Source of the DNA: Symbiodinium natans | Taxonomy: Eukaryota; Sar; Dinophyceae; Suessiales; Symbiodiniaceae | Assembly (NCBI GenBank): GCA_905221605.1 | Contig: CAJNDS010001668.1 | Location: 1,042,276-1,106,275 of the forward strand | DNA: 64,000 bases | Direction of reading: 5' to 3' | Shown: in pieces, positions 7,220 through 58,047 of the stretch | Position numbering within the stretch: position 1 is the first letter of the stretch | Layout of the letters: the number at the start of each line of letters is the position of its first letter | The notes under the pieces: model-generated | What the model was told of the DNA's origin: nothing | Seen by the model: only the letters and a program-made list of their open reading frames with translations | Database searches by the model: none | Program-made: the position numbers and the translations under genes

Positions 7220-7221
7220 GC

Positions 7222-14112: not shown

Positions 14113-14163
14113 AAGGTCACTAGCTGGAACCTGAACCTGAATCAAGAGGCTGCCTGGCTTGCG
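14113..14163 (+). CDS. Exon island with GTAAAG donor
   Basis: Reads KVTSWNLNLNQEAAWLA and ends GCG|GTAAAG, a canonical donor. VTSWNL could be another WD40 strand. C-strand repeats upstream. Confidence 0.45.

Positions 14164-14683: not shown

Positions 14684-14684
<1 letters not shown>

Positions 14685-14716
<32 letters not shown>
14685..14716. repeat. Poly-G run
   Basis: About 32 consecutive G, then a second short G run after AA. Length unreliable. Confidence 0.9.
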
Positions 14717-14717
<1 letters not shown>

Positions 14718-14764
14718 AGGGGGGGGGAAGGTTAGGGCAAGTATAACAAGCTGAAAGCTTAATT

Positions 14765-15690: not shown

Positions 15691-15882
15691 CTAAGCCCCG
15701 ATGAAACCCATCATGGACGACGTGTTACTTTGCTCGAAAAAGTCATCCCTCTAAGCCCTAAACTCCCTAAGCCCCTATAGACTCTTAAACCCTAAACTCC
15801 CCCCCCCCCCCCAAAAAAAAAAAAACTGCCCAAAATCCTTGCACCCGATATAAGCCCCTCGAAGCCGAAAGCCCTTCCGTAG

Positions 15883-15936
15883 GCGCTGAGCGCGTTCGAT
15901 CCCAGCTTCGGCACGGGGCCAGTCCTTCAAGGAGGC
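15883..15936 (+). CDS. Possible exon island
   Basis: After CCGTAG the frame reads ALSAFDPSFGTGPVLQGG. C-strand repeats and a C-run precede it and G-strand repeats follow, which fits the exon polarity pattern. Product unknown. Confidence 0.35.
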
Positions 15937-16682
15937 CTTTTAAAGGTTGAGGGCTGCGGGTTCAGCACCTGGTGTTGCGGGTTGCAGGGTTTAAGGTCTT
16001 CAAATGTTTGGAACCTAGGTGTTAGGATTCAGTGTTGAGGGTTGTAGGGTTTGAGGTTTTCAAATGTTTGGAACCAGGTTTAAGACGATCCAGGGTTGCG
16101 GGCTTGGGGTTGGGATCTATGGTTTGAGGCTTGTGAGGGTGTAGGGACTAGGATCCAGTTTTTCGGGTCCGGGCTTATAGGGCTTAGGGTTTGTGATGTA
16201 GGGTTTCAGCTTCAGGGCTCAGGGTTTAGGATCTAGGGTTGGGCTTAGGGTTTACGGCCTGATTGGAGGTTCATGGGCAGTTCTGTCTGCGCATATAAGA
16301 GTAGCTAGAGAATGCAAAGAGACCTTGACTTGGGGGGGGGGGGGGGGAACATCCACATAACCTACTTCTTACTTTGTGATCCTGCAAGTAGGGTTTATCC
16401 GGAACGTGATGCGGTCTGGTATTGAAGGGATCTTGAACTGCCCCGCCCTTACCCAAAAAAATTGTCCAAAGAGCCCTCAGTGAAGCCTTGCCTGGGTCTT
16501 ATGTTTTAGGTGGTGGTATACTTTGGGTGGGTGGGCTTTGATTTGGGGGTTTGGATTTTCGGGTCCTCAAGTCAAGGTTTAGGGCCAAGAGTTTCTGATC
16601 TTGGGGTTTGGATTGTGGGGTTTCCCCCCCCCCCCAACAAAAACAAAAGGAAAAACTAAGAACGCACACAAGATTGAAAAGC

Positions 16683-16769
16683 AAGTCGTCTGTACGGTTC
16701 ACAAGCTTCTGTCGGCGAGGCTACTCGGACCCATTTGCCTTGGAGCCGGGCCGGCGCGTGAACCCACAG
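16683..16769 (+). CDS. Exon island with GT donor
   Basis: Reads KSSVRFTSFCRRGYSDPF to NPQ and ends CCACAG|GTGTGC. G-strand repeats follow. It lies 200 nt before the first nuclease ORF but no joining frame is evident. Product unknown. Confidence 0.4.
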
Positions 16770-16995
16770 GTGTGCGAGTTCAGTAGGGTTCAGGGTTTGA
16801 TGGGTTCAAGGTTTGAGTTCTATATGGTTGAAAGTTTAGGGGAGGCGGGGGAGACCAGGCCGAGCCAACAAGGATCAGAGAGGCAGAGAGAGGAGGCAGG
16901 ATTCCATTGGGGCAGCCCTCACCTCGGAGCTCTTGCAGTCTAGAGGCAGATCCCTACGTGTAGATATAGACGCCGGAGCCGTGGATGGCCACAGG

Positions 16996-18633
16996 ATGCT
17001 GAGTTTGGCAAGCTTGTTCGCCGATGCAAAGAGCTGCAGGGGCTTTGTTCCGAAGGTCCGGCACGTCGGACGACCTCGGAGCTTGGGGCATCAAGGAGCA
17101 CCTACATCTCGAGCACCTGCATCTCGATCCTGGCTGGCTGCCGTTGCAGGTGGCGTGGTGAGTTTCCGGAGCCTTTCGGCCCGCAAGTGCAAGCCTGTTG
17201 CGAAGGGCCAGTGGCATTCGCACTCGACGGGCCCCGACGAAACGAACTTGCAGCGCGACGGCCGCGAGGGGGAGGTCCTCCACTCCTCAGCTCCGCGAGT
17301 GGGCCGCAGGAAGAAGCAGAAAAAAGAAGCGGTCAAGAGGGCTGCGCTCCAGAGGCTGAGGGACCATGCGGCCAGCAAGGGTGGGAAATGCATTTCAGAG
17401 ACGTACATGAACTGCATGTCGAAGGTCCGGTGGGAGTGCAAATTGGGGCACAGGTGGATGGCCACGCCGAACAGTGTGCTGAACGGCGGAAGCTGGTGTC
17501 CTCGCTGCAGCATCAACAAGAGGAGCCTCGGCTTGCACCAACTCCAAGAGCACGCGAGGAAAAGAGGCGGCAGGTGCTTGTCCGACGAGTACCGGAACGC
17601 TCATACCAAGGTTCGCTGTCAGTGCAAGCTGGGACACACCTGGGAGGCCACGGCGAACATGGTGTTGAACAAAGGGACCTGGTGCCCCGAGTGCGCTCGC
17701 GCAACAAAATCACGGTCAAAGCGAAGCTTGAGGGACTTGCAGGAGCATGCCGCCACCCGTAGAGGCAAATGCTTGGCTACTGAATATGTTGGCGTCATGG
17801 CGAAAGTTCCGTGGCAGTGCGAGAAAGGCCACACTTGGAGTGCGCGTGCAGACAGCGTGTTGAATATGAAGACCTGGTGCCCGGCCTGCGCGCAGAATGC
17901 ACCCCTGGGCTTGGAGCGACTGCGGAGCCACGCCGCCCGCCTTGGTGGAGAGTGCCTGGCCAAGGACTACGAGAACAACCGCATCAAGGTGCGATGGAAG
18001 TGCAGCTCTGGCCATGTATGGCGAGCAACTCCGAATAATGTCATCATCAAGGGCACCTGGTGCCCCGAGTGCCAGAAGATCGGCCTGGCACGTCTGCAGG
18101 CGCACGCCGCGTCGTTAGGCGGCAGGTGTCTGTCCATGAAGTATAGCAACCGTGAAGCGAAGGTTCTTTGGGAATGCCAGCTCGGCCACAGGTGGAAAGC
18201 CTGCGCCGCTAACATCCTTCATCAGCAGAGCTGGTGCCCTCAGTGCGCGGCCAGCACTTGGAAGACGGAAGCTGAAATCCGGAGCATTCTGGAAGCCATC
18301 TTCGCCCCTTCAATGTTCGAGTCGTCCTATCCCGCGTTTCTGGGAGGTCTGCAGTTGGATGGGTACTGCTCCGAGCTGTCCTTGGCTTTCGAGTACCAGG
18401 GGGAGCAGCACTATGATCCTGACAACTACTTCCATTTCGGCGACCCTTCAAGCTTTCAGAGTCAGCTGGAGAGGGATGAAAGGAAGCGCCAGCTTTGCGA
18501 AGGGGCCGGCGTGCGGCTGGTGCTGGTGCCGTGTTTTGCAAACGACAAGCGCCTTTTTGTGCTCACAGCTCTGCTTCAGTGGTTCTCCATGGCTCAGATC
18601 ACGGTCCCCATGTTGTCGCAAGCTGGCAGCTAG
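16996..18633 (+). CDS. Zinc-ribbon repeat / endonuclease-like protein, copy 1
   Basis: 545 residues in one uninterrupted frame. ATG 16996 is chosen because the matching ATG is conserved in all five copies and no in-frame ATG lies upstream. A basic N-terminal region of about 115 residues contains SWLAAVAGGVVSF, which might be a targeting or membrane-associated segment. Five repeats of about 60 residues follow (118-417), each of the form HA..GG.CL...Y.N...KV.W.C..GH.W......VL...WCP.C; the Cys, His and CP.C residues should bind zinc. Residues 420-545 form a restriction-endonuclease-like domain with helix KTEAEIRSILEAIF, Asp455 in LDGY and Glu466 in FEYQGEQHY, like the D...ExQ/K core of PD-(D/E)XK or Vsr-like nucleases. 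Similar architectures are known in bacteria and large DNA viruses. DNA binding and cleavage are inferred. Confidence 0.88.
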   Translation: MLSLASLFADAKSCRGFVPKVRHVGRPRSLGHQGAPTSRAPASRSWLAAVAGGVVSFRSLSARKCKPVAKGQWHSHSTGPDETNLQRDGREGEVLHSSAPRVGRRKKQKKEAVKRAALQRLRDHAASKGGKCISETYMNCMSKVRWECKLGHRWMATPNSVLNGGSWCPRCSINKRSLGLHQLQEHARKRGGRCLSDEYRNAHTKVRCQCKLGHTWEATANMVLNKGTWCPECARATKSRSKRSLRDLQEHAATRRGKCLATEYVGVMAKVPWQCEKGHTWSARADSVLNMKTWCPACAQNAPLGLERLRSHAARLGGECLAKDYENNRIKVRWKCSSGHVWRATPNNVIIKGTWCPECQKIGLARLQAHAASLGGRCLSMKYSNREAKVLWECQLGHRWKACAANILHQQSWCPQCAASTWKTEAEIRSILEAIFAPSMFESSYPAFLGGLQLDGYCSELSLAFEYQGEQHYDPDNYFHFGDPSSFQSQLERDERKRQLCEGAGVRLVLVPCFANDKRLFVLTALLQWFSMAQITVPMLSQAGS

Positions 18634-19406
18634 TTGTTTGTCACTTCCACACCGCACACAGAGGGCCGCGTCAGTGGTTGCCTTTGGGTGGGGCCAACAT
18701 AACTTGCAGCCTGGTTGCTCGTAAGCAATTCGATGCGAGAATTTGCAGCGATTGTCATGTATCTGCTGCAGACCGGCGCAGGTGGGCGAAAGTCGATCTA
18801 AACGCTGAACCTTAACCCCACCCTTCCATCCGTCCATCCGTCCCTGTCTTCGGGTTTCGTAGGGTTTTGTGGAGGATTTCAGAGGGAAGGGTCTTTAGGG
18901 TATCAAGGGTTTGGGGCTTCATGTTTGTTCGAGTTGGGTCTGAGGGAGCTTTGTGGATTCAACTTGCGGGTTCTGGTGGTCTGGGAGTTGATGGACATGG
19001 GGAGTGTTGAAGAATTGATGAGCCCCTTGAAGCCCCAGAAACGTTCCTTTTTTGGCAGCTAAGTCGGGCCTTGGGTTTGTGCTGAACCCCAAAGGCTTCC
19101 TACAGGAATCTATGCATCCTCAACACCCGGGAAATAGCCCTCTTCTCCTGGGGCCACCTAGGAGGTAGCCGTATGGGGTTCAAATGGTGCAGCCAGACAG
19201 GGGTCAAGCATTTTAGGTTCTCTGAAACATGAACATCAGTTGAGTGCTTCTTTTTGAGAAGGTTTGGGTGTAGGGCTTCCCCCCCCTGGAGACATTCCTC
19301 TTGTTTTGCAATGGCTACCTGTAACCGTAGGCCTCCGAGCATGAACCCTTAAGGTCGACCCTAAAAAGCCTAGTCCCCAAAACGCCGAACCTGTTTAGGG
19401 TTTCTT
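18634..19406. other. Conserved 3' flank of nuclease copy 1, no gene seen
   Basis: Begins with a block conserved after copies 2 and 3 (GCAATTCGATGCGAGAATTT, then CTGCTGCAGACC, CGCAGGTGGGC and AAGTCGAT), a likely 3' UTR. It then passes into G-strand and finally C-strand repeat before the island at 19407. Confidence 0.5.
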
Positions 19407-19481
19407 CAACCCTTGCGCAAGGCGCTGAAGAAGGAAGGCGACTCTGACTCCGACAACGATCTGGTGGATGCGTTTCACTGA
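19407..19481 (+). CDS. Unit-gene island alpha, unit 1
   Basis: 24 codons then TGA: QPLRKALKKEG followed by DSDSDNDLVDAFH. Repeated in all four units with mainly synonymous or conservative changes, so it is very probably coding. An acidic Ser/Asp tail ending in a stop suggests the C-terminus of a protein. Family unknown. Confidence 0.6.
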   Translation, partial: QPLRKALKKEGDSDSDNDLVDAFH

Positions 19482-34986: not shown

Positions 34987-35055
34987 GCCTGTCTTGAACC
35001 AGTGGATCCCGCGCGCCTCGGATCAGGCGACCTCATCTGCTTCGTGGTTATAGAG
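34987..35055 (+). CDS. Mini-exon, textbook borders
   Basis: CCCTAAA repeats end in ATTGCCCAG, then 23 codons reading ACLEPVDPARLGSGDLICF and VVIE, then GAG|GTTTTAGGG. Both ends are phase 0, in frame with the next exon at 35336. Product unknown. Confidence 0.6.
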
Positions 35056-40000: not shown

Positions 40001-40078
40001 CGCCCTTGCCAGCTCGTCTCCCCCCGGCGCCGACTGAACTTGGATCGGCTCTCCACGCTGGCGGAGCCTCAGGCGCGG
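40001..40078 (+). CDS. Mini-exon joined in frame to next
   Basis: GTCCCTTCAG acceptor, 26 codons (RPCQLVSPRRRLNLDRLST then LAEPQAR), ending GCGCGG|GTTTAGGG. Phase 0 at both ends and in frame with the exon at 40310. Product unknown. Confidence 0.6.
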
Positions 40079-40309
40079 GTTTAGGGTTTAGGGTTTAGGG
40101 TTTAGGGTTTAGGGTTTTTTGGGTTTTTTTGGGGTTTTTGGGGTTTAGGGTTTAGGGTTTAGGGGGTGTTAGATGTTCAAGAGGCTTAAGGCTTTAAGAA
40201 TTTTGAGGCCATACAGATCGCAGGTTTGGATCTTGGGGGGTCTGCGGCTTCGGGCCCTAAACCCTGAGCCCTAAACCCTAAAGCATGCCCCAGGCTCTTG
40301 TTTATTCAG
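40079..40309 (+). other. Intron with complementary telomere-like ends
   Basis: 231 nt. It starts GTTTAGGGTTTAGGG (about six G-strand units, then GGGTTTTTT variants) and its 3' part carries CCCTAAACCCTGAGCC and CCCTAAACCCTAAAG before TTTATTCAG. The 5' G-strand tract can pair with the 3' C-strand tract. Flanking exons are both phase 0. Confidence 0.6.
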
Positions 40310-40393
40310 ATCTGGGATCGAGCTGCTGTGTTGCCCCCTGAGATCCGCCGTCGACCCGACAAGTCGTCTTCGCTCCTGGCCAGGCGCCGCTAA
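40310..40393 (+). CDS. Terminal exon
   Basis: TTTATTCAG acceptor, 27 codons IWDRAAVLPPEIRRRPDKS then SLLARRR, TAA. Very strong G/C third positions. Arg-rich C-terminus; family not recognised. Confidence 0.6.
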   Translation: MWDRAAVLPPEIRRRPDKSSSLLARRR

Positions 40394-45446: not shown

Positions 45447-45507
45447 ATGGCCCGCACCATGCTGCGCGGCGTGCTGTTGGCTGCCGCCGGGTGCCGAGTG
45501 CTCCAGG
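45447..45507 (+). CDS. Possible first exon, signal-like N-terminus
   Basis: ATG then MARTMLRGVLLAAAGCRVLQ, ending CAGG|GTTTTGG. A basic start and a hydrophobic stretch resemble a signal or transit peptide. Nearly all third positions G/C. The frame is open upstream, so the ATG may be internal. Confidence 0.45.
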
Positions 45508-45691
45508 GTTTTGGATGTGGGGCTGAGTGCTCTTTTGGACAAATTGCCGGAGGTGTTGGTCACAGTGAACAGGATTTATGGTTTGAGGCTCTGGGGCTTA
45601 GGGACTTCGGGTTCAGGATCTTGTCACAGCGAAATCAAGTGCCAAGGTGGTTTCGGGGTGCGAGATTGGTTCCGGGTTGAGAACCTGACAG

Positions 45692-45902
45692 CGGAATGCC
45701 TCGGAGCTTGGTGCGGAGGCACACTGGAGCGGCCCGGACTCCGGGGACCATGCCTGGGCTGGCTTCGGAGTGCTACAAGACCTCTGGGTTCTCGCGCAGC
45801 AGGGCTTTGAAGCAGAAGGTGTTCAATCGGGCCGCGTTTCTGTACCCCGGCGCCGCCGGCAAACGATCCCAGGCGATTACGGCGCTGACCATGGTCACCT
45901 GA
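45692..45902 (+). CDS. Terminal exon, unknown
   Basis: AACCTGACAG acceptor, then a frame of about 70 codons ending TGA (RSLVRRHTGAARTPGTMPG, SRSRALKQKVFNRAAFLYP, SQAITALTMVT). All three frames are open; this one has by far the highest third-position GC. Basic protein tail, possibly of the same gene as 45447. Confidence 0.45.
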
Positions 45903-46168
45903 GTTGCGAGGGCGGCGCTGGATAGAGAGATCAGGGGGCTTACGGCCTCGGGTGTTTGGGGATTCGAGGTCAGGGACGGAGCAGTGGTAAACCTTACTAG
46001 TACTCCTTTGTTACATCATAAAACAACCCCCTTACACCTTCATACTTCGGCTCCTGGGCTCGTATGGCATCCTACTTCAAGCCTTGAAGCCTTCAAACCC
46101 CACGCCCAAACCCCAAACCCTAAGAAACCCTTAAACCTTATTGGACCCAGAGAAACACACAAGCCCAG

Positions 46169-46242
46169 ATTCTGGCGTCGGTTGCCGCACGGGGCGTGGA
46201 CTACGCGGCAGAGGCGGGCCACGATGGCTCCTCAAAAATAGT
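46169..46242 (+). CDS. Coding-like island, frame ambiguous
   Basis: After AAGCCCAG all three frames are open for over 20 codons (one reads ASVAARGVDYAAEAGHDG). C-strand repeats upstream. Low confidence. Confidence 0.25.
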
Positions 46243-46249
46243 TATGCTT

Positions 46250-47250
46250 TGCTGGGCTCATGCTCCCCAGGTTCACCCAGCCCCTCCAGCAGATAGATAG
46301 ACGAGAGAAATGGATAGGTACAAGAGCGGGTCCCCCTCGGTTGTTTACATGTTGAGGTGATTTATGTTGTTTGATTGTCAGCCTTGCAGCCGGATCTTTG
46401 GGCTTCGCGGTACGAGATTGTTAGCAGAGCCCAGCTGCCCACTAGGGTTCAAGAGACCACCTGCTACAAGCCAAAATGTTCAGGGTTGAAGGTTCTGGGG
46501 GCTCTGTGCTCGGAGGTGTGTGGGTAGTTCTACTTGGGGTTAAAGGTCGGGCAGCATGTTGGGCACCTAACAACCCCTGAAGCAAACACGAACCTGCAAG
46601 TAGGGTTTCGTATGAAGGGTCATTTGGGGCTTAGAGTTTAGAGCTACTTGCTTCCGGGATCTGGGCCCGAAGAGCCGAAGCCCCATGCCAAGCTCAACTG
46701 ACAAAACCTCCGTAGCAAATTCGAGGCGCCTGAAGGCTCGAAATGGCCAGTAGAGCCCTCCTTCCCTGGTTAGGGAGCAGCTTCCCTTACTCCGCTGTGA
46801 AGACACCGGCGCCCGTTTTGTTGATTCCTATGTCACCGTGCTACCAAGAAGTTGCCAAGAAGGACGCCTGAGCTCATGGATATCACATGACCCTGATCTC
46901 TTTCCCCTACTAATCCCTGAACCCCACGAAACCCTAATCCCTAAGCCCTGACTCACCTCAGGCTAAGGAAGCTGCAAAGGAGGCCCGGTGCAGCTCAATC
47001 TTATAAAACCCCAAACCCTAAGCCCTAAACGCTCACTTTTGGTTTAGGCTTACCTAGTGTAGGGTTTTTTCTGGGGTTCAGGGTTGTAATTTCCTCAACC
47101 CACAAAAAACCCAAACCCTAAATCCTAGGCTTGTATGGGGAAATGTGCGTTTACGATACTTCGGGACCCTGACTATGGCTGCAACTAAGTGGACCCCCCC
47201 CTGAAACTACTTTCGACAGCCTCATGAGCTGACCTGCGACACTTGGGGGA
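46250..47250. other. No supported gene
   Basis: Mixed unique sequence with few heptamers; open frames are short or matched by antisense frames. Confidence 0.4.
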
Positions 47251-47266
47251 CTAGTGCGCAATTTCG

Positions 47267-47627
47267 ATGTCTTCATGTTCAACGAGCGGGCACTCCTTGT
47301 ACATGTTCAGGCATTTGATCACATACTTCCAGCGGGAACGACCCGAGATCCGCAGCTACTTTGGTGGCTGCTGGCAACTAGTTATGAAGTGGGAACGCCT
47401 GGAGCCAGTGGAGCATCGCAATCCGCTGCCGATGGTTCTGCTGCAGGCCATGGCTAGCCCTGTCTCTGCCTTGGGACTGGCGGCATGTGGCCGGCATTCT
47501 GGTCCTGACTTTCTTTGGCATGGCTCGGCCTGGCGAAGTCCTTCGGGCGACACGAGCGGAGTTGCTGCTTCCCGGCGACCTGAGCCACGGAGATCGTTTA
47601 GCTGCAACGTGCGGGGATGGATTGTAG
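47267..47627 (+). pseudogene. Tyrosine-recombinase-like ORF fragment, frameshifted
   Basis: The first frame (47267 to about 47455) reads LITYFQRERPEIRSYFGG, CWQLVMKWERLEPVEHR and PLPMVLLQAM. The next frame continues (47457-47627) LALSLPWDWRHVAGILVL, then FFGMARPGEVLRATRAEL and LLPGDL. Together they match the helical segment and MxRPGEx(L/I)xATR region of tyrosine-recombinase/DIRS-like integrase ORFs that I recall as abundant in dinoflagellate genomes. The frame change and the lack of catalytic R-H-R-Y residues show it is a relict. The match is from memory, not a search. Confidence 0.55.
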
Positions 47628-47866
47628 TGGCCGGTAAGAAGAGTCAACCCCGAAACCCTACAGCCGTGTTTCCATGCTGCGACAGGCATCAAATTGGATA
47701 AAAGACCCATTAAGCCCCAAACTCCAGGATGTGAGGCTCCAGACGCAACGAAACCGTGCAGGGGCAGTGAACACCTTTACCCTAACTCAAACGTTTTATC
47801 CTTAAACCCTAAACCCTAAAGCCTAAACCCCTAAACCCCTAAACCCTAAACCCTAAACCCGAATAC

Positions 47867-47944
47867 GCGTACAAACCCAAGGCCCGCAAAGCGAAATCCC
47901 GAGACCTAATGCAACAAATGTGGTTGGATAGACCGATTTGGCAG
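47867..47944 (+). CDS. Possible mini-exon
   Basis: Reads AYKPKARKAKSRDLMQQMW then LDRPIWQ, ending GGCAG|GTTCAA. C-strand repeats lie on both sides, an exception to the usual polarity. Confidence 0.35.
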
Positions 47945-47963
47945 GTTCAAAGGCACCCTTGGC

Positions 47964-48156
47964 ACCCTAAACCCTAAACCCTAAACCCTAAACCCTAAAC
48001 CCTAAACCCTAAACCCTAAACCCTAAACCCTAAACCCTAAACCCTAAACCCTAAACCCTAACTCTAAACCCTAAACCCTAAACCCTAAACCCTAAACCCT
48101 AAACCCTAAACCCTAAACCCTAAACCCTAAACCCTAAACCCTAAACCCTAAACCCC
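47964..48156. repeat. Long CCCTAAA array
   Basis: About 27 CCCTAAA units with one CTAACTCTAA interruption near 48060. Interstitial. Confidence 0.95.
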
Positions 48157-48647
48157 AACCCCTTTGATTGAGGGTTGAGGGTTTGGGGGCGCTTCCGGGG
48201 CTTGGGGCCACAGATCAATTCAGCCTTGGTACTCAACCGAGTGGGTCGCATCCTAGGACTGCGAAAATACAGGAGCCCAAGGAATTGAAGGGGCGTTGAG
48301 GGCTCTTGGGATTCTGGGGATTCGTGAGGTTTAGGGTTTAGGGTTGAGGGTATGAACACCAAAGGTAGGAGTTCTATCTGCGAATTGCCCCATTGTATTT
48401 GCACAATGGCAGGAACCCTGAACTCGGAAGAATATAGTCCAAATCAACGAGGTACCCCTAATTTCGGATTGCCAATTGGGTTTGGGATTGAGGCTTCGGG
48501 CTTAGGGTGCTTACCTTTGTTTCGATGATTCCTCCGGGCTCGGGGGTTTGACGGTCTTGTGATTTTAGGGGTCAAAGGTTCTATAGAGTTCCCCTAAACC
48601 CTTAACCTTAAACCCTAAACCCTGAATCCGAAACCCCGGTGAGTTTA

Positions 48648-48737
48648 GCGAATATAACGTGCACCCTGTGAACCTGCACTCCAATACTCGCGAGGCATGG
48701 AAGCACGCAAAGGACCTCGCAAAGAGCTCCAAGGACG
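48648..48737 (+). CDS. Exon of Ala/Lys/Glu-rich helical protein
   Basis: Follows GAGTTTAG; reads EYNVHPVNLHSNTREAW, then KHAKDLAKSSKD, ending at GACG|GTCTAG. The Lys/Ala/Asp repeats resemble LEA-type or coiled-coil helices. First clear island of a gene extending to 58047. Confidence 0.5.
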
Positions 48738-49104
48738 GTCTAGAAGGCTTCAGGGAGTTGTTGGGTTTTAGGGTTCATGGTGTAGGGTTCCCCTAAACCC
48801 TAAACCCTAAACCCTAAACCCTAAACCCACCATAGAGTATTCTTTGATACCAGGACCTCAACAAGGGAACCCGAGTCTCGAAAAGCTCCCTTGGGGATAG
48901 AAGTTGCAGCGTGTTGTGGGTTCGAGCATTCAGCGTTCAGGAGCACTAGTGCATGTGGCGGCTGCTCCAGAGAGTGCTGTACGGGGGTTTATCAGTATAG
49001 CACTAACCACTAAGCCTTCACCCAAGCCCTAATCCTAAACTTGAGGGCTTATTGTCTTTTAAGTTGTTTCTCGAGTATGGCCCCTAGTATTGAAACCCTC
49101 AAAG

Positions 49105-49165
49105 TCAGAGGACACGCAGAAGATCGCGGAGGACGTGAAGGCCGGAGTGTACCAAGGGAAGGAAG
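49105..49165 (+). CDS. Exon of Ala/Lys/Glu-rich helical protein
   Basis: Reads SEDTQKIAEDVKAGVYQGKE, ending GGAAG|GTTCGC with one base over. That phase joins exactly to the exon at 49373. Confidence 0.55.
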
Positions 49166-49372
49166 GTTCGCCAATACGCCTCGGACCAATGGCTTGAAAG
49201 CATCGGGGGGCCTTGGGGCTGAAGAGTCCGCGCGTATGTACTCTATGTTGTGTTTCTTTTTTTTTTCAAAAGCCTCCAGCCGCAAGCCCCAAAGGCTTTT
49301 CAACCCTCTAAACCCTATACCCCTAAGCCCTACATAAACCCTCAAACCTAAGCCCTTTCCTCAAGCAACCAG

Positions 49373-49444
49373 CGCCCCAGGCGGCGGGCAAGGGTGCCAA
49401 GAAGGCCATGGAGAAAGCCAAGGCCCGAGAAGAGAGCCTCCCGA
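49373..49444 (+). CDS. Exon of Ala/Lys/Glu-rich helical protein
   Basis: AAGCAACCAG acceptor, two leading bases completing the codon from 49165, then PQAAGKGAKKAMEKAKA and REESLP, before GTAAAC. C-strand repeats upstream, G-strand downstream. Confidence 0.6.
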
Positions 49445-49488
49445 GTAAACTTGAAGCATAGACGCAAGGCTTAAGGGTTCAGGGTTTA

Positions 49489-49549
49489 GGGGTTTAGGGT
49501 TTAGGGTTTAGGGTTTAGGGTTTAGGGTTTAGGGTTTAGGGTTTAGGGA
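49489..49549. repeat. TTTAGGG block
   Basis: About eight G-strand units following the exon at 49373-49444. It is paired further on by a C-strand block (49608-49680) before the next exon. Confidence 0.9.
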
Positions 49550-49691
49550 GGGTGTCGCTGTGGTCTTGCTTTGGGGGACCTCAGGGCTCCGGACCCGGCA
49601 TCTTTAGAACCCTAAACCCTTAACCCTAAACCCTAAACCCTAAACCCTAAACCCTAAACCCTAAACCTAAACCCTGAACCCTTTATAACAG

Positions 49692-49768
49692 GAGATGGAC
49701 ACGAAGATGACGGAGCTCTACGAGGCTACGAAGGCCGCCACGGCCTCGGCGGCCAACGAGGCGCTGGG
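49692..49768 (+). CDS. Exon of Ala/Lys/Glu-rich helical protein
   Basis: TTATAACAG acceptor, then EMDTKMTELYEATKAATAS and AANEAL, ending CTGGG|GTTCAG. Third positions almost all G/C. It is a heptad-like helix with Met/Leu/Ala core positions. Confidence 0.65.
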
Positions 49769-50579
49769 GTTCAGGGGTTTTTTTTGGAGTTTAGGGTTTA
49801 GTAAGTTTAGGGTTTAGTAAGTTTAGGGTTTAGGGTTTAGGGTTTTGGGTTTTGGGCTCAGGGTTTAGGGTTTGGGGTTTTAGGGTTTGGGGTTCAGCTG
49901 TTCAGGGCCTTTGGGGAATAGAGGTGCACGGGGGTTGAGTCTGAGTCAGTGGTCCAGGGTTGCAGGCTTAGGGGTTGAGCGTTTGGGGGCTTAAGTTTAG
50001 AGTTTTCATTTTAGGGCTCAGAGTTGTTTTGGAAGGGAGGGTCCGGGGTTCGATGTTCTGACTTGGGGTTGGATGGAGGTTGGATTTTTCAGATCTGGAT
50101 TGAGGCTGGAGTCTGGTTTTAAGGTTCAACAGACTACAGAACTAGGTCTAGCTTGGGTCAATTTAGAAGGGATCCTAAAGCTGTGAATGAGTCTCAGGTG
50201 TACTTCATGCATGGTTGCACAGATCTCTAGACTCTAGCCATACAGTACGAAGCCATGAATATTCCGCGACTCTTCAGAACTCGAACGATGGCTTATCCGT
50301 CCTCATCCGCTCAAACCGAAGAAGCGCCATGAAAGCCCTGGACGGCCCACCCCCCCACCCCACACACAAAAAAAGCAACGGGATGACTTTAAGCCCTCAC
50401 AGAAAATGCCTAAACTCCAAAGACTGCTCCAAAAACAAGAATCCCTTTTTCGTGTCTTCCTTAGTCGGTATATTTCGGGTTTCGGGCTCAACTAGCATCC
50501 TCTTTGGTACATCCTTTTGCATGGCCAGCTCTCTACTTTGAAGTCCCTTGTGGCATAGGCGGCCCACATAATCATGCAG

Positions 50580-50697
50580 TAGATTCCGTAGAGCTGAGGG
50601 CAGCAAAAAAGGGAAACCGGAATATCGAGCCACAAGCCGACGCCCTGGATCAGGCAGCCATGACCTACTTCCAAGAGGCCAGATGGGGTTTGGTGTT
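50580..50697 (+). CDS. Exon of Ala/Lys/Glu-rich helical protein
   Basis: CATGCAG acceptor, reads DSVELRAAKKGNRNIEPQ then ADALDQAAMTYFQEARW, ending ATGG|GTTTGG-like sequence. G-strand follows. A 155-codon antisense frame overlaps but has poorer composition. Confidence 0.45.
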
Positions 50698-50699
50698 GG

Positions 50700-51280
50700 G
50701 GGTGTTACTTGCGGGTTCGGTTTGGGGGCCCAATACCCCTGTACTTCAGGGTTCTTCCTTAAGCACGTTTTCAGCGGTCCCATCATGATGTCCTTGTTCC
50801 TTTGTAACTTCCTAGGTATAAAGAACCAGCGTTCCATCAAGGGACCTACATTGAAACTATGCACTATAGCGTCTGCACAGGGTTGAAGGGCAGTTCTTCT
50901 GCTCTTGCTAAAGCTGGATCTCTTATATGGTCACTTCTCAAAATTATGGTCCCTTTTGGGGTTACTATTATCAGGCAGCCCCTGATATTTACGATGCCCA
51001 TAGCAGGACCGAATTTTTTGAGAAATCCTGGGTCATCCGAAAAGCGAAGCGGGTTTACTGTGGGAAGACGTGTCACTCCTCCGAGGGCTCCTTGCGGTTG
51101 CTTGGCTTGCTCGTGATGGTTCAGTGGTACCCTGTGGTTCTGGTTTCCCTTACAAAGTAGCCAACCCAGAAACAGGGGTCCAGGTTGTAACCTCTTCTTT
51201 GCCTTGGCTTCCAAGGCACCTCCGACGCAGGCCCGAACCCTGCGGCAAAAACCCGAAAACCTTGCAACCCTAAAACCCGC
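50700..51280. other. No clearly supported gene
   Basis: Starts in G-strand variants (GGGTTTGGTGTTGGGGG), then unique sequence with overlapping short frames on both strands; likely intron. Confidence 0.4.
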
Positions 51281-51290
51281 GGAGATTCAG

Positions 51291-51343
51291 GTGAAGGCTG
51301 CAGGGGCCAAGGCAGCTGCGGAGGCGGGAAGCCGGCTGCACTT
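51291..51343 (+). CDS. Exon of Ala/Lys/Glu-rich helical protein
   Basis: GAGATTCAG acceptor, VKAAGAKAAAEAGSRLHL, donor CTT|GTGATG. Same composition as the islands at 49692 and 52236. Confidence 0.5.
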
Positions 51344-51543
51344 GTGATGCACACCTACCTAATCACGCATCACCCAAGCACTCGGTGCTCTCACATGTCC
51401 ACGCATGTCTTCCTGCAGTTTTTCCCTCTCTCCCGAAACCCGAGAAGTTTCGTGTGTGAAGCTTACGCCCCGAAACCTTCAGTGGGGATTCTTTTGGCAA
51501 GCCGAAGCCCCCGTCCCTCCTTGCATGAGCTTTTGGACTGCAG

Positions 51544-51574
51544 GCTGCGATGCCCCGCAGCGAGGCGGAGGGCT
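51544..51574 (+). CDS. Mini-exon, Ala/Glu-rich
   Basis: GGACTGCAG acceptor, AAMPRSEAEG, then GCT|GTAGGG. Very short; supported mainly by context. Confidence 0.35.
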
Positions 51575-52235
51575 GTAGGGTTTCGGGCTTGACAAGCAAT
51601 CGGGCTTAGGGTTTGAAGTTTTTGGGGTAGTCAACCCCTTTAGATCCAGAGGATGACCTTCCCCGAAAGGAAGAGGTGGTAAGAAGACCCATACCCGAAA
51701 CCCTCGACCCCTTTTGGAGAGCTAGGATCTGTGCGGAGGCTTAGGGCACCCCCAGAAATCTGCTTGAGATTTGGGTTTTGTGTGCTTCTGCCTCCAACTC
51801 GTTGCCTTTACGGCTTGTGGGTTTAGAGGCAGGGCTTGAGTTTCGCGGTGTTTTTTGCGGAGTAGTCGTACGATGCAATCGAAGTGGGTCGAGGGTGTGA
51901 GGCTCTATAACAAGCCACGTAGCTTGGCATACGGCAGCAGACTGTTCTTTCAGTTTGTGCGCTTCAAAGCAAGGAACACGCTCTCAGCTTCCTTTTGCTG
52001 CGGGGTTCAAAGCATCTGCCTTCAAAGTTTCAAATGTCTTTTGCCCAACCCCTCCCCACGCAAACCCACCCCAGGGTGGGAGTGTCAAAAGCTCAAACGA
52101 TCTACATAGCTGCACATATAGGTATCCTTACACATCCCTAGTAACGTATGTCAAACCGCCGCCCATGAGAATAGACCCAATGACCTGCAAGCCCCAAACC
52201 CTAAACCCCGAAACCCCAAAGAGTGCCCCCCTCAG

Positions 52236-52280
52236 GCCGCCGAGGCGAAAGCTGCCGCCGAGGCAGCAGCCACGGCGGCC
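52236..52280 (+). CDS. Exon of Ala/Lys/Glu-rich helical protein
   Basis: CCCCTCAG acceptor, 15 codons AAEAKAAAEAAATAA, donor GGCC|GTTGGG. C-strand upstream and G-strand downstream. Confidence 0.55.
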
Positions 52281-52299
52281 GTTGGGAGCTTAAGGGACG

Positions 52300-53440
52300 T
52301 GGGGGTTGGGGGATTCAGGGTTTAGGGTTAAGGGTTTATTAAGGGTTAAGGGTTAAGGGTTTGGGTTTCGAGTGTGCACGGGGTGTAGCGGGGGGGGAGA
52401 GGGGGCCATGGGGGGCGGGGCTACTCAGGGTTGTGTGGAGTAGCCTCAACAATTAGACCCTGCACCTCTGGATCCAGGGTGTTTCCCCTTGTTGGGCAGT
52501 GAATAGAGGAGCTGGAGAGTTACCACCGGGTAGTACTAAGAGGGTGTTCTAAGGGGTCTCCGAGTAAAAGTACGAAAGCGGGTTACCTTGGAGGTCTGGT
52601 TTCCTGGCCGAACGACCCCAATATCAACATTCTGAAGGGGCTATTGTGCGTTTCGTGCGCTCATGAAAAATAATATTGTGCATACATTTCGCACGCAGAG
52701 AATGACGGAGCGCAGTAAAAAAAAAAAACTCATTTTGTGCTCATAATGCTGCACGCAATACTAATAATCCACGTTGTAATTAGCATTTTATTGCTCGCTT
52801 GCTCTTCTTGCCAGTTCACATCCTTGGCTCGCGAAGGGGCTTAGGGATGTCTCATGGCGGAGTACCCGGGCTTGTTGTCCTGCTTGTCTCCCCAAACCCA
52901 AACCCCTAGCCTTAAACACCCCAATCTTAAACCCCAAACCCGCGGGCTCCTAAAACCCCGCAGCCCTCAAATCGGATTTTGCAAACACGAGAAGCACCAG
53001 ACGGCAAGGCAGAACCATATCGCACAGCCCGGATGAAGGCGCAGAGGGTGTTTCGCTGTACTTGTTTTTTGGATTTGGGCTGTCAGATCTCAATGTCCGG
53101 CACGGTCTTTGAACGTGGGGCTTGGCATGTGCCTTTTCAGGCCCGGCCGCAAGAAGCCACCCCACCCCACATAAAATCCCTAAATTTTGATAGGCACCCT
53201 ATCCGTGAATTCTGAACCCTACAAACTCCCTACATGCTACGTACTATCAAGCACTAGAACTACACTCCTGTCTGACCCCAAAACTTTGGGCTGTCTTCTT
53301 ATTTCCCTTTGTAGGGTTCGGGGTTTAGGGTCTTGGGCTTAGGGTTTAGGGTTTAGGGTCTAGGGCTCTTAAGAGAGCATCGCAGTCTGGACGTTTCAGA
53401 GGGTGGAAGAACGCCCCAGGGCGCCCGCAAGTGCCCAGCC
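52300..53440. other. Long intron-like region, no clear gene
   Basis: G-strand variants to about 52400, then an AT-richer stretch (52610-52810) with an A12 tract and GTGC-rich sequence unlike the surroundings, possibly an inserted element. An open frame at 52979-53215 lacks support. Confidence 0.45.
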
Positions 53441-53448
53441 ATGGCCAG

Positions 53449-53492
53449 GCCGAGCAGAGGGCGATGGAGTACCAAACCAAAGCCCAGGCGCC
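53449..53492 (+). CDS. Exon of Ala/Lys/Glu-rich helical protein
   Basis: CATGGCCAG acceptor, AEQRAMEYQTKAQA, donor GCC|GTGCG. Best third-position GC of the three frames. The exon may extend upstream to about 53368. Confidence 0.45.
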
Positions 53493-54021
53493 GTGCGTTG
53501 GGACGTCGATCTTGCTTTGTTGTGGGCCTAGGGCGCTTGAGGGAAGTAGTGGAAGCAAAGGGGGTCGAACTCACAGATCATCTCCACTACATGCAAAATA
53601 GAGCAGCTCAAGGTTGTTCTTCCGTTTTTTTGGTCTGGGCGCAGGGAAGCTCGGGGTGTAGGTTGCACCCAAAAGCTCGAAGACCCCGGAAGGAAGGTCT
53701 CTGAGCCTTTTTGCGGGGGTCCGTGAGTGGAGCTAGATGGAGGTTCTTACCACGCGGACCAGCATTTTGTTGACGTCTACATGCCATCTTTCTTGAATTC
53801 CAATATTCCGTAGTGAAGGGCTGTTGGGCTTTCAGGGTCCAGGATTGACGTTTGCGCGCGCTCGGGGCGGGCTTATGAAGTGCGAAGGCTGGTGGGTTGG
53901 GCTTGTGCTCTGACCTCGGCGATTTCAATGCTTGACCTCAGCCGTATGAGCAGCTTCTAGTAAACCCGTGTGGCAGGCCCCTAAGAAACCCCTGAAAGCC
54001 TTCTACACCTGAGCCCTAAAG

Positions 54022-54100
54022 CCTTCGCATACCTTGCCCTTTCCCACGGCGAGGCCATGTATGCCAAGGGCAACCAGATGCAGGCACCTGGGGCGACCAG
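54022..54100 (+). CDS. Exon with telomere-repeat donor
   Basis: CCTAAAG acceptor, FAYLALSHGEAMYAKGNQMQ then APGAT, ending GACCAG|GTTTGGGG and about 14 TTTAGGG units. Strong G/C third positions. Confidence 0.6.
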
Positions 54101-54199
54101 GTTTGGGGTTTAGGGTTTAGGGTTTAGGGTTTAGGGTTTAGGGTTTAGGGTTTAGGGTTTAGGGTTTAGGGTTTAGGGTTTAGGGTTTAGGGTTTAGGG
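54101..54199. repeat. TTTAGGG block
   Basis: About 14 G-strand units starting directly at the donor of the preceding exon. Confidence 0.95.
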
Positions 54200-54569
54200 G
54201 TACCCTTGCGCTCCTTGCTTTTGGGGTTAGGGTTCCTTTCAACCCACGTCTTCCCGATTTATTCCTGAGTAAACACCCAGCTTCACAGTCAGTCCCCCAG
54301 CCCCTACACTACCATTTGCTTAAGAACCCCTAAAGAAAAATGTGGATCCCTGTATTCCCCTTATCCCTTATGAGGCGGCTGAGGTCCAGCTCGAGCCCTG
54401 TCTAGGTTTTGAGGCTTCGGGAAGGCTGTAAAATGGGTGTTTCCCCCTTAAATACCCCAATCCTTGCCAAAAGGACTCAACCGTAAACCCTAAGCCTAAA
54501 CCCTCAACCCTAAACTCTATTCTCAGAAGCTCCTCCCCCCCCCCCCCCCCCCCCAATGCGGCTTCCAAG

Positions 54570-54609
54570 GTGGATGGTGCAGGGTTGGCCCCACATGCGG
54601 CAGGCGGAG
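54570..54609 (+). CDS. Mini-exon
   Basis: CTTCCAAG acceptor after a C-run of about 19 nt, then WMVQGWPHMRQAE, donor GAGG|GTGGGG. Strong G/C third positions. Confidence 0.4.
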
Positions 54610-55130
54610 GGTGGGGAGCTTGCGGATCTGGGCTTGAGGGTTTTGGGTGCACTCTCAGTGGCGGGTTTGGTACAAGTTGTAGGGTTCCGGGCTACCCTAA
54701 CCCTAAACCCTTTTAGGGCTTGGCATCTTCAAGCCCAAGCCCCAGGCAACTCCCCTCCTTCTAAGGCCCTTCATGCTAACCCCAGGAGGTCGCGATGTTA
54801 TTACGATTTCAGGACGATGCCCCTAACTTATGAGGGTTCCTAGTATTTGGGGGGTCAATCATAGGTAACCCTAAACCCGAAAAACCCGAAACCCTATACA
54901 CTAAACCATCTGGGAATCCTGAAACCTTCCAGGATATCAGAATCTGGGTCAGACCATTGAGGCTGACAAGCTCCTTGGCGGGCATCCCTAAGGCCTAAAC
55001 CCGAAACCCTAAGCCCAAAACCCCAAACCCCAAACCCCAAACCCTAAACCCTAAACCCCAAACCCCAAACCCCAAACCCTAAACCCCAAGCCCTGAACCC
55101 TAAACCCTAAACCCTAGCTCCTCCTTCCAG

Positions 55131-55247
55131 AAGCCTTTGGTTCCCAGATCCCCCTCAATAGCCGGCGAAGAGCGCAGCAGCAGCAGCAGCAGCAGCAAGA
55201 CTGGCGTTGTTCGGTTCACCTTTCTTGGGCTCAAGGCTTCCTTGTGG
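55131..55247 (+). CDS. Exon with Ser repeat and telomere-repeat donor
   Basis: CTCCTTCCAG acceptor, 39 codons in phase 0: KPLVPRSPSIAGEER, then seven AGC Ser codons, then KTGVVRFTFLGLKASLW, ending TTGTGG|GTTTAGGG. The AGC run is a coding microsatellite. C-strand upstream over about 130 nt. Confidence 0.6.
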
Positions 55248-55269
55248 GTTTAGGGTTTTGGCTTTAGGG

Positions 55270-55656
55270 TTAGGGTTTAGGGTTTACAGCCCTAAGACCA
55301 GCTAAACCCGCCCAAACCCTACTAAGCCCTAAAACCCAAAACCTGCAACTCGCTACACCCTTAAAGCTTCAACCCCCCTAAACCCCAGACCCGAAGCCCT
55401 AAACCCTCGAACCCTACAACCCCCAAAGCCCTAAACCCGAAGCCCTGAAACGCTAAGCCCTAAAGTCCTAAACCCTACGACCTACTGAAGCCCCAAAGGA
55501 AATCTCGGAGACCCCACCCTAAACCCCAAGCCCTAAACCCTAAATCCTAAGCCCTAAATCCTAAACCCCAAGCCCGAAACCGTAAATCCTAAACCCTAAA
55601 TCCTAAACCCTTAGCCCCAAACCCGAAACCCTAAAGCCCTAAACCCGAAACCTGAG
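55270..55656. repeat. Degenerate C-strand heptamer region
   Basis: About 380 nt of CCCTAAA/CCCGAAA/CCTAAGC variants between the exons at 55131 and 55657. Confidence 0.8.
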
Positions 55657-55720
55657 CTCCGAGGATCATGTCCAAGGCGCGCACGCTGGTGGAGCAGGGC
55701 CGGCGCCTCAGGGGAGCTTA
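55657..55720 (+). CDS. Exon, possible GC donor
   Basis: CCTGAG acceptor, PRIMSKARTLVEQGRRLRG, ending AGGGGA|GCTTAGG. If the donor is GC it is the heptamer GTTTAGG with one change; GC-AG introns are reported in dinoflagellates. Confidence 0.5.
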
Positions 55721-56003
55721 GGCGTTCAAAAAGTTAGGGTCTTTGGGGTTCAGGGGTTTTGGGGGTTTGGGGGGTTCTGGGGTTTGGGTGTTTGGAGATT
55801 TAGGGTTTGGGGGTTTGGGGCTTAGGGGTTTAGGGGTTAAGGGGTTTAGGGGTTTAAGGTCAAGGGGTTTAGAGGTTTAGTGGTTTAGGGCTTAGGGGTG
55901 CTTGTCTTGCATTTGTTGAGGGTGTCTTCGGGTTTTTTGGATCGTTCAGGGTCTGTTTTGCTCCCTGCACTGCTAAGTGGGCCCGATTATTTTTTTGTTG
56001 TTG

Positions 56004-56028
56004 GGGGGGGGGGGGGGGGGGGGGGGGT
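56004..56028. repeat. Poly-G run
   Basis: About 24 G; another run of about 19 lies at 56234. Lengths unreliable. Confidence 0.85.
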
Positions 56029-56291
56029 TGGCTCCCTTAGAAGCCCCTGGAAACCACAAGCCACAAGGGGCACCCTTGTTATTCCTGGGTTCCTCTTGGG
56101 TCCAGGCAAGGAGAACCATAGCTGCCCCAAAGATGCCCCCAACAAACCATTCTAGCCCCTCCGACGCCTGTACTCCTGCCATGATTGGCTTTGTTCTCTT
56201 CTCGTCGCAACTAGACCAGTGATGAGTTTATTTGGGGGGGGGGGGGGGGGGGGTATGTGTAGTATGTATGTATTTTCTTTTTTTAATGTGG

Positions 56292-56326
56292 GTATATACA
56301 TATATATATATATGTATATATACATA
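56292..56326. repeat. (TA)n / TATATACA microsatellite
   Basis: TA-rich tract with TATATACATATATATATA and its mirror, able to form a hairpin. Confidence 0.85.
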
Positions 56327-56969
56327 TTTGTTTATTTATTTACAATGAGACGTCAGCTTCAAGCGCCCTTCCTGAGTTCGAGAGGCCTGAAGTACAAGCG
56401 CCAAGCAAAGCTGATCTACGATGCTGCGCAGCAGATCAACGCGGCGCGCCCCGCGGGGGGACCCAACACTGCTGCTCGTGGGCTGATCATGGGTTCCCCT
56501 ACTACCCCCGCCACCCTCTATAGTACCCCCCAGGTTGCCCCCCATAATTAAGGCTATATAGGCATAAGGCTACAGAGGAAAAAGGGGGGGGAACCTGGGG
56601 AGTAGTCTAGCGGGGGTTAGTACGGGAACCCATGGGCTGAGAAGCTGTCAAGGGCTTCACCCCAGTCTTGGGATTCGGCATCTGGGGCGAGCTGTTGGGG
56701 TGTTCGCTCTTTTGTCCAGAAAGCACGCAAATACCTGTACAAGCAGACAACTCGCCCCGTCGACGAGAATGTACCCTGCGATCTCGTCCTTGTCAAAGCT
56801 GAGTTGTCCAATCGGTCTTTCACGCACGAAGTATTGGACACAACAACCACTCCTTCCCCTTCCTGACCAGTCTGGTTATGGTTATGAACATAGTCGTCTG
56901 TTGTCTGCTGCTCGGTTGTGCAAATGACCATTCCCTAAACCCTAAACTCCGACAACTCAAAATCCCCAG

Positions 56970-57054
56970 CTCCTGGCCCCTCCCAAGGCATATGCTGAGG
57001 CAGAACAGGCCGCGGCGGGTTTTGCTGAAGAGTCCAGGGCTGGAAGGAGGATTA
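56970..57054 (+). CDS. Exon of Ala/Lys/Glu-rich helical protein
   Basis: ATCCCCAG acceptor, LLAPPKAYAEAEQAAAGFA then EESRAG. The donor is not clear. C-strand before, G-strand after. Confidence 0.5.
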
Positions 57055-57789
57055 TAGGGGTTTAGGGTTGAGGGCTGCAACAGCCCCTAACAGCCATCCC
57101 TGAGCCCCCCCCCCCACCCAAAGTCTTCAAAAGGCAGCCTGAAAACACCAAACCCTAACGGCCATTTTCGCCAATTGCCATTATGTGGCTGCGTTTGGAA
57201 AAACCTGTACAGCAAACAGCCCTGGTGCCCGAAATCCCTGGAGCATAAAACCCTAAAATTCACAAACAGCCTGTCCCCTGCAAACCTGCAGGTCTAGCTC
57301 CTTCAAGCAACTACTAATTGCTTAAGAACCGAAAACATAAAAGGTATTCTTCCTTATTAGGCGTAATACAGGGATTGTTTTTGATTCTTTTGGGGTTCTT
57401 AAGCAAATAGTAGCCAAGCCAATCCTCGTAAAATGCCCAGCAGTTCCCTGATTCCTCCTTTCCTTCGAGTTCTTTCGGTCCCTTGTAAACCTAACTAAAC
57501 CCAATTGTCCAAAAAGGCTTCTGCTTTTCGACACTTTACTCTTCTGGCTTACTGAGAAGCCCTGAACCTTAAACCCTATAAACCCGATTTTCCTCCGAGT
57601 TTGCACCGGAACCTGGGAAACCCCGCTTGTGCAGCAGCAGTGCTCATAGGCCTTCGAGGGGCTTGGGGAACCTAAACTAAAGTTGAGGGTTCCAGTGGCT
57701 TTGCAGTGAACTTCAGAAAGTTGGAGCATGGTCTAAAGATGATGAGAGCTGGGATTCCCTTTAGTATACCTTTTGGGACAAGGATGTTC

Positions 57790-57808
57790 CAACTTCTGGA
57801 GTTTGCTT

Positions 57809-57839
<31 letters not shown>

Positions 57840-57958
57840 AAACCCTAAACCCTAAACCCTCACTCCTCAACCCTCTCAACCCTCAACCCTAAATCCTAAA
57901 CCCTCAACCCTAAAACCCCAGTACCCTCAACCCGCAGCCTTCAACCCTAAAACCCTCA
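57790..57958. repeat. Mixed CCCTCAA/CCCTAAA block
   Basis: C-strand array mixing CCCTCAA and CCCTAAA units, directly before the terminal exon at 57960. Confidence 0.85.
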
Positions 57959-57959
57959 G

Positions 57960-58047
57960 CGTGAGCTCCGGCGTTCAGGCGGCGCGGCTGCACGCCGCAG
58001 CCATGGCCACGCCGGCGGTTCTCCCCACCAACGCTCCTCCGCTCTGA
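57960..58047 (+). CDS. Terminal exon of Ala-rich protein
   Basis: ACCCTCAG acceptor, then VSSGVQAARLHAAAMATP and AVLPTNAPPL, TGA. Nearly all G/C third positions. Plausible 3' end of the gene whose islands start at 48648. Confidence 0.6.

Follow-up and report, generated by a model that had tools for sequence, protein, structure and literature searches.

The window analysed here is a 64-kb stretch of the Symbiodinium natans genome (C1668:1042276-1106275, in an assembly of 759,417,921 bases and 2543 contigs). Three of its genes, an acylphosphatase-like gene, part of a PX-WD40 gene and a gene for an alanine-rich protein, were modelled by spliced protein-to-DNA alignment, in which GT, GC or GA was allowed as donor and AG as acceptor, both imposed by the aligner. 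The proteins aligned were full-length dinoflagellate homologues, found via chimaeric queries of hand-spliced pieces, and several come from transcript assemblies, to judge by their names; the genes of the window have hits in Effrenium voratum, S. microadriaticum, Polarella glacialis and Durusdinium trenchii. The three genes contain 47 homology-defined introns (Table 1; a slash marks a splice border). The C-terminal 388 residues of P0121 align with 336 identities across 24 introns, and over the matched part the PX-WD40 relatives P0121 and P0122 (E. voratum) reach 67% and 58% identity. P0168 yields four introns over residues 155-256, with 78 identities, and the spliced acylphosphatase peptide matches Pfam PF00708 (E 4e-8) over 26-61, spanning a junction. 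The other relatives recovered were the acylphosphatase P0166, the 504-residue ion-channel model P0169 and P0171 of D. trenchii. The support is less firm for eight of the 47 introns, namely 849-1362, 1414-2265 and the six that the PX-WD40 gene contains from 14149 onwards which are not counted as firm. The acylphosphatase introns were taken from P0168, the other exons of P0166 being unused; the exons of the N-terminal third of P0121 and P0122, which matches weakly at 396-4201, and the P0169 exon 49906-49932 were excluded, and the introns of the P0171 gene stand outside the set. A home-made gene finder was too loose (18/34 donors and 21/34 acceptors recovered) and supports no conclusion. Rfam and tRNA scans of the 64-kb window gave no matches.

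Table 1. Genes, exons, introns and heptamer tracts of the window (positions within the window; 'earlier border' refers to a donor proposed in a preliminary description of this DNA)
Feature	Position	Strand	Basis or remark
Acylphosphatase-like gene, 4 introns (2 firm)	352..2728	+	P0168
PX-WD40 gene part, 24 introns (18 firm)	4384..19478	+	C-terminal 388 residues of P0121
Intron GAG/GCCTCC..CAG/GTC	11952..12100	+	earlier border 11977 lies 25 nt inside
Intron AAG/GCGGGGTTTAGGG..AAG/GTC	13306..14115	+	P0121 and P0122; earlier border 13311 lies 5 nt inside
Exon PVLNQWIPRASDQ, ending CAG/GCGACC	34987..35026	+	P0171, weak; earlier border 35056 lies 29 nt downstream of the donor
Exon (..RRRLNLDRLSTLAEPQ)	40013..40072	+	P0171 alignment, weak; 5' end 40013 set by the aligner, perhaps 40000
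Putative intron, GC donor CAG/GCGCGG GTTTAGGG	40073..40309	+	donor from P0171 and consensus; 3' end as in the preliminary description
TTTAGGG tract, 5 exact copies, just within the intron 5' end	40080..40114	+	
CCCTAAA tract, 3 exact copies, 27 nt ahead of the earlier acceptor	40255..40282	+	
Second exon of the preliminary description, open, in frame, ends TAA	40310..40393	+	without homologue; acceptor AG/A
Gene for 252-residue alanine-rich protein, 20 exons, 19 introns	45459..58044	+	P0170, 225/252 residues identical
Clearest intron, donor AAG/GCCCGA, acceptor CAG/GAG	49423..49691	+	spliced alignment
G tract of intron 49423-49691, 9 copies	49485-49548		
C tract of intron 49423-49691, 7 copies	49610-49665		
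Intron CAG/GCACCTG..	54084..54569	+	P0170; earlier border 54101 lies 17 nt inside
Intron containing earlier border 55248 and a C..G island without homologous exon	54970..55663	+	spliced alignment

Several further observations concern the gene content. The PX-domain part of the PX-WD40 protein has no convincing match upstream of 4384 and may be lost, diverged or located elsewhere. Four tandem single-exon zinc-finger ORFs of one family occupy 16840-30189, with a partial fifth at about 63385-63954; the first of them, which was scanned, matches PF14311 and CapR and sits within the last PX-WD40 intron (16770-19421), and the last PX-WD40 exon (..DSDSDNDLVD) is repeated at about 19422, 23268, 27148 and 30779. 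Heptamers are few between 19.5 and 31.5 kb (0.58 and 0.83 per kb). The best named match of a zinc-ribbon ORF in the window, at 71% identity, is to Symbiodinium natans. The gene at 34987-40072 contains LAKP/LVELA-type repeats and a sub-threshold THEG match (E 0.0021). Relatives of this gene and of the gene at 45459-58044 are united in the single model P0171, so that the neighbourhood may be conserved or the P0171 model a fusion. A long tandem run of CAACCCT, a heptamer close to the telomere repeat, lies at 44935-45165, and a coding-like open frame at 47255-47701, within intron 46983-48694, is perhaps a mobile element; it had no Pfam match at E 0.01.

Judged by these alignments, the introns appear to be of the ordinary dinoflagellate type, mostly AG/GC...AG/G. 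Their donors are GC in 40 cases, GT in five and GA in two; AG directly precedes the donor in 32/47, and 46/47 acceptors read AG/G. When 11 introns of an aceE-like gene described below are added, the 58 introns comprise 50 GC, six GT and two GA donors, the base after the acceptor being G in 56 and the acceptor AG/A in two. With GC penalised by 6, it still accounted for 17/19 donors with P0170, 18/23 with P0121 and 19/24 with P0122, and it remained dominant for all three proteins when GG was also allowed. Restricting the donors to GT lowered the alignment scores from 865 to 584, 1491.5 to 1104 and 1183 to 847, respectively (a cost of 281-388), with a loss of 34, 39 and 30 identities. The predicted introns thus agree with dinoflagellate spliceosomal introns in having a GC, GT or GA donor and an AG acceptor followed by G, and the homologous proteins suggest that they are removed from the mRNA. 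GC/GA-AG splice sites make up 25-74% in Symbiodiniaceae, according to the accessible text of PMC11453091.

The preliminary description had taken GTTTAGGG as the 5' splice site, with borders of this type at nine positions, a claim that the alignments contradict: none of the 47 homology-defined donors is GTTTAGGG. Donors resembling it were chosen solely under the GT-only setting (4439, 4455, 13318, 49492, 50720 and 54108), and the earlier borders are therefore a typical outcome of GT-only reading. Good homologues place AG/GC 25, 5 and 17 nt upstream of borders 11977, 13311 and 54101, respectively. At 13311, relatives read GGGDGK/VTSWNLN, and the window has AAG/GCGGGGTTTAGGG and then resumes with GTCACTAGCTGG. 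Reading 11977 as the donor misses exon 12101-12152. Border 55248 falls inside a homology-defined intron, and for 35056 and 40079 the weak homologue points to donors that are probably GC and lie upstream. Border 32632 has an AG/GC 15 nt upstream and is without a homologue; 41982 and 61212 have no AG/GC within 30 nt.

At the locus that gave rise to this study, the tracts and their coordinates were confirmed by direct reading, and, as had been described, the segments 40001-40078 and 40310-40393 form one open frame when joined; it closes with TAA. The gene concerned is the least well supported of the window (about 50 identities over 100 residues with P0171), and the choice between GC and GT depends there on the penalty. 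The aligner picks GC at 40075, 4 nt upstream of 40079, with the exon ending at 40074. We prefer CAG/GC at 40073, 6 nt upstream, as the probable donor, since it fits the consensus and the conserved LAEPQ ends there. The putative second exon has a coding score of 2.5 over 27 codons.

What does hold is the polarity of the heptamers. The 150 nt flanking the splice sites within the introns consist to a considerable extent of intact or decayed heptamers, TTTAGGG after the donor and CCCTAAA before the acceptor, and this fixed order, part of the preliminary description, goes beyond chance. With up to one mismatch, TTTAGGG hits number 232 in the 5' halves and 71 in the 3' halves of the 47 introns, and CCCTAAA hits 85 and 359. 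Counted by intron, TTTAGGG-type heptamers favour the 5' half in 31 and the 3' half in five (p 1.3e-5), and CCCTAAA-type heptamers favour the 3' half in 35 and the 5' half in five (p 1.4e-6); both polarities are correct in 24 introns and both reversed in one. Without the eight less certain introns, the remaining 39 give 26 against 4 for the G strand and 28 against 4 for the C strand. When the outer 150 nt are compared, the 5' end has the higher GC skew in 41/47 introns. In a tract test by wrap-around alignment, which counted a tract when at most three of 60 dinucleotide shuffles aligned as well, 29 introns had a G tract at the 5' end and 32 had a C tract at the 3' end, as against wrong-way tracts in 11 and 10; at least one proper tract was present in 44/47 and at least one wrong tract in 20/47.

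The same order is seen from the side of the exons, which tend to lie between an upstream C tract and a downstream G tract (C..G). Across the window, excluding intervals at 16-31.5 kb, a coding score of at least 5 was reached by 11/23 C..G gaps of 30-150 nt, against 0/9 G..C, 0/17 C..C and 1/17 G..G gaps. Within the three homology-defined genes, a whole exon is contained in 13/17 C..G intervals of 30-200 nt and in 2/28 others (Fisher 2.7e-6). For intervals up to 450 nt the figures are 15/19 and 10/38 (p 2e-4), and for tracts of at least two copies only, 8/10 and 2/8 (p 0.054). The order C-exon-G is identical on either strand and thus uninformative on gene direction. Some C..G islands in these genes are without a homologous exon (55112-55248, 48153-48329, 9421-9509 and 53185-53323); they could be decoys, lost exons or alternative exons.

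The polarity extends outside the 64-kb window. An exon resembling AceE was found 0.5 Mb from the window on its contig, in one of the stretches sampled, and from an alignment of that region to E. coli AceE 11 of 60 introns were kept, namely those between well-matched exons. Their donors are GC in ten cases and GT in one, and their polarity is correct in eight against two for the G strand, in nine against one for the C strand and in 10/11 by skew, giving 39 against 7 and 44 against 6 for the combined 58 introns. A whole-genome search for the same polarity had been proposed; in a sample of 15 stretches, each from a different contig and together 149 kb long with 5 kb of N, the polarity was upheld for short intervals and not for longer ones. 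Among gaps of 30-150 nt, 16/30 C..G were coding-like, against 0/11 G..C, 3/10 C..C and 0/7 G..G (C..G against all others, 3/28, p 7e-4), whereas the coding scores of C..G and G..C gaps of 150-250 nt did not differ. Between tracts of at least two copies, C..G gaps have quartiles of 102-168 nt (n=43) and G..C gaps a median of 245 nt (n=40). An open-frame test on AGG..AGGC in the sampled stretches was not significant (C..G 9/35, others 4/38, p 0.13). The genome looks partitioned, some stretches having hundreds of heptamers per 10 kb and others hardly any: in four of the 15, more than 200 heptamers fell within 10 kb and no 300-nt segment was coding-like, and nine had at most 13, four of these with coding-like 300-nt segments. 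Among the matches to four heptamers listed from other collections (6 viral_contigs and at least 119 genome_contigs stretches), no contig was dinoflagellate-like, by heptamer spread alone.

The tracts are interstitial telomeric sequences, that is, exact or near-exact repeats at internal sites, with up to 31 exact copies of TTTAGGG in the longest tracts of the window. GTTTAGGGTTTAGGG occurs 1,703,186 + 1,702,768 times in the 759 Mb, and the same pattern written backwards 155 + 170 times; many of these 3.4 million 15-mer telomere-type matches lie within contigs. The identity of TTTAGGG as the telomere repeat is carried over from other dinoflagellates (PMC11453091 and PMC11508785, in the text accessible). 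At the intron ends it outscored the others among 14 units tried, and TTTGGGG and similar units also scored. Masking heptamers with at most one mismatch covers 42% of the intron ends, at least halves the GC skew and abolishes the T/A skew, a smaller GC skew remaining. Under a third-order Markov model, fewer heptamers would be expected at the proper ends than are seen (61 observed against 27 +/- 4, and 73 against 43 +/- 6), and this is also true of the less numerous wrong-way copies (18 observed against 4, and 8 against 2).

How did this order arise? The account that we favour, and to which we would give nearly even chances, is that introns took in telomere-type repeats on a large scale, that these expanded there, and that splicing sorts them by orientation. 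Under this scheme, repeats would enter and expand within introns in great numbers, and splicing would tolerate or use one orientation. The C strand would suit the zone before the acceptor, since it contains no AG and offers CTAAA where a branch site is expected, about 20-39 nt before the acceptor. The G strand near the acceptor would create decoy acceptors (TTTAG/G); behind the donor it would be harmless, or even helpful as G-runs, which are splicing enhancers in vertebrates. The heptamers would not themselves be splice sites, nor would they have to pair, and the complementarity of the ends would be a by-product. TTTAGG is present in the last 60 nt of 2/58 introns, against the first 60 nt of 23/58. 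CTAAA is most frequent where its A falls 20-39 nt upstream of the acceptor (23 cases, the neighbouring bins having 4 and 19), whereas CTAAC and CTRAY show no peak; as most of the CTAAA signal stems from the heptamer itself, it is not independent proof of branch sites. The G-strand excess behind the donor is less well explained, the AG argument not covering it. The density of the G strand is 8.86/kb near the donor, 0.59/kb in mid-intron and 1.16/kb near the acceptor; being as rare in mid-intron as near the acceptor, it resembles enrichment behind the donor rather than removal. The wrong-way tracts, which are evidently tolerated, also count against sorting by splicing.

Alternatively, the polarity could have been set at birth, telomerase having extended both ends of intragenic breaks before these were rejoined, with no sorting by splicing. 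Each 3' end would gain TTTAGGG, leaving a TTTAGGG..CCCTAAA insert that is spliced out. We consider this unlikely, although it deserves to be taken seriously; this grading and that of sorting by splicing are judgements, not calculations. By reasoning, healing predicts exactly the polarity observed, and a telomere-capped insert would give the opposite. It is also consistent with tracts that hug the exons, with the scarcity of the G strand in mid-intron and with the heptamer specificity of the intron ends, and for the head-to-head stretches of mouse lemur and Xenopus it has been suggested that a second telomerase works on the opposite side of a break (PMC8537989, accessible text). On the other hand, in the two introns examined no G tract is directly followed by a C tract, 61 nt (49423-49691) and 90 nt (40073-40309) lying between them. 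In addition, the first exact G copy stands at least 6 nt behind the donor and the last exact C copy at least 10 nt ahead of the acceptor (58 introns), and several sampled stretches are almost free of heptamers. A bolder form of this idea strikes us as rather improbable, namely that a large part of the introns of the lineage go back to double-strand breaks of exons at AG/G, whose two ends telomerase extended before they were joined again. If true, telomere maintenance would have served as an intron factory and the repeat polarity would be its fossil.

It is more doubtful still that the introns are introners, i.e. DNA transposons whose terminal inverted repeats resemble telomeres by chance. Roy et al. 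2023 (Curr Biol) reportedly describe dinoflagellate introners, as cited in PMC11453091 and PMC10666404. Such elements are on record in dinoflagellates, according to the accessible texts of PMC11453091, PMC11114475 and PMC7789003, and the preliminary description had drawn the comparison with introners bearing terminal inverted repeats. The first six intron bases after the G match the first exon bases 103 times, against 85 +/- 6.7 after permutation, a weak excess at +1..+6 with P 0.005 in one of three ranges tried. Yet exact border repeats of at least 4 nt occur in 2/47 introns, compared with 4.3% between different introns; AGG is common to both borders, equally so between different introns as expected of a splice consensus, and longer exact runs are not in excess. 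Introners have been defined by inverted repeats of 8-20 nt that lie no more than 30 nt from each intron end (PMC7789003, used in PMC10666404, as far as these texts are accessible), a feature that is not characteristic here: repeats of at least 8 nt are present in 4/47 introns against 2.0 expected, and of at least 10 nt in 2 against 0.3 expected from cross-pairing. Within 100 nt of the ends, 8-nt inverted repeats are found in 23/47, against 22.0 expected from unrelated introns. A single similar pair (49 nt, 82%, inverted) exists among 49 window introns, which do not appear to be copies of one element.

That complementary ends form a stem and bring the splice sites together, with GTTTAGGG as the donor, is very improbable. 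Beside the joining frames at 40001-40393, this model can claim that stems are able to form: against dinucleotide shuffles, 16/46 introns have ends more complementary than expected (z < -2), intron 49423-49691 being the extreme (z -9.7), while the mean z is only -1.3. What fails, apart from the donors and the far worse GT-only alignments, is specificity. The summed energy of the duplexes between own ends is -3181 over 46 introns, against -3173 +/- 103 for random matching, and 914 of 2000 permutations were equally strong or stronger. A C end pairs across the exon with the G start of the next intron at a mean of -73.5 kcal/mol (n=43), against -69.1 for own ends. Since own ends pair no better than others, nothing makes them choose their own intron, and the complementarity is generic. 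Least credible of all is the absence of any telomere biology, with heptamers arising by chance from sequence that is G/T-rich at the 5' end and C/A-rich at the 3' end or from an artefact of assembly: the GC skew left after masking and the scores of related units would suit it, and the rarity of the backward pattern genome-wide and the excess of proper-end heptamers over the Markov model argue against it.

We found no description of telomere repeats at intron ends in the open PMC texts searched, in line with the preliminary description; this absence carries limited weight. If general, the pattern would link intron ends with the telomere repeat across a genome of 759 Mb, and a comparison of relatives could test a concrete hypothesis of how introns originate. 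The pattern also sets two traps for annotation. A gene finder restricted to GT places donors on GTTTAGGG, as seen under the GT-only setting, and definitions of introners by inverted repeats may count telomere tracts as transposon ends.

Among known systems, the non-canonical splice sites of dinoflagellates (PMC11453091) are alike in the predominance of GC donors and AG/G acceptors; telomere tracts at intron ends, present here, are not mentioned in the accessible text of that source. The introners of Amoebophrya (PMC7789003, accessible text) are likewise dinoflagellate introns with complementary ends, and a hairpin at the exon borders is drawn there too. They have inverted repeats of 8-20 nt and direct border repeats of 3-5 nt in mostly non-canonical introns, whereas here long degenerate telomere tracts lie some way inside GC-AG introns, their complementarity is not intron-specific and signs of target duplication are weak. 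Comparable, too, are Prorocentrum cordatum, with introns bearing 'simple inverted repeats at both ends' (PMC10666404), and the Effrenium introners (PMC11114475): these are free-living dinoflagellates with long introns and repeats near their ends. The word part 'telomer' is absent from the accessible text of both sources and the repeat is not named telomeric there. Possibly these cases are the present phenomenon as it looks when introns are filtered by inverted repeats, although only 4/47 introns pass the inverted-repeat part of that filter here. Finally, the interstitial telomeric sequences of vertebrates at repaired breaks (PMC8537989, PMC2246262, as far as accessible) are also short internal tracts, some of them head-to-head. 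They concern few loci, and the word 'intron' is absent from the accessible text of PMC8537989, whereas in S. natans such repeats number in the millions and keep a fixed order relative to exons.
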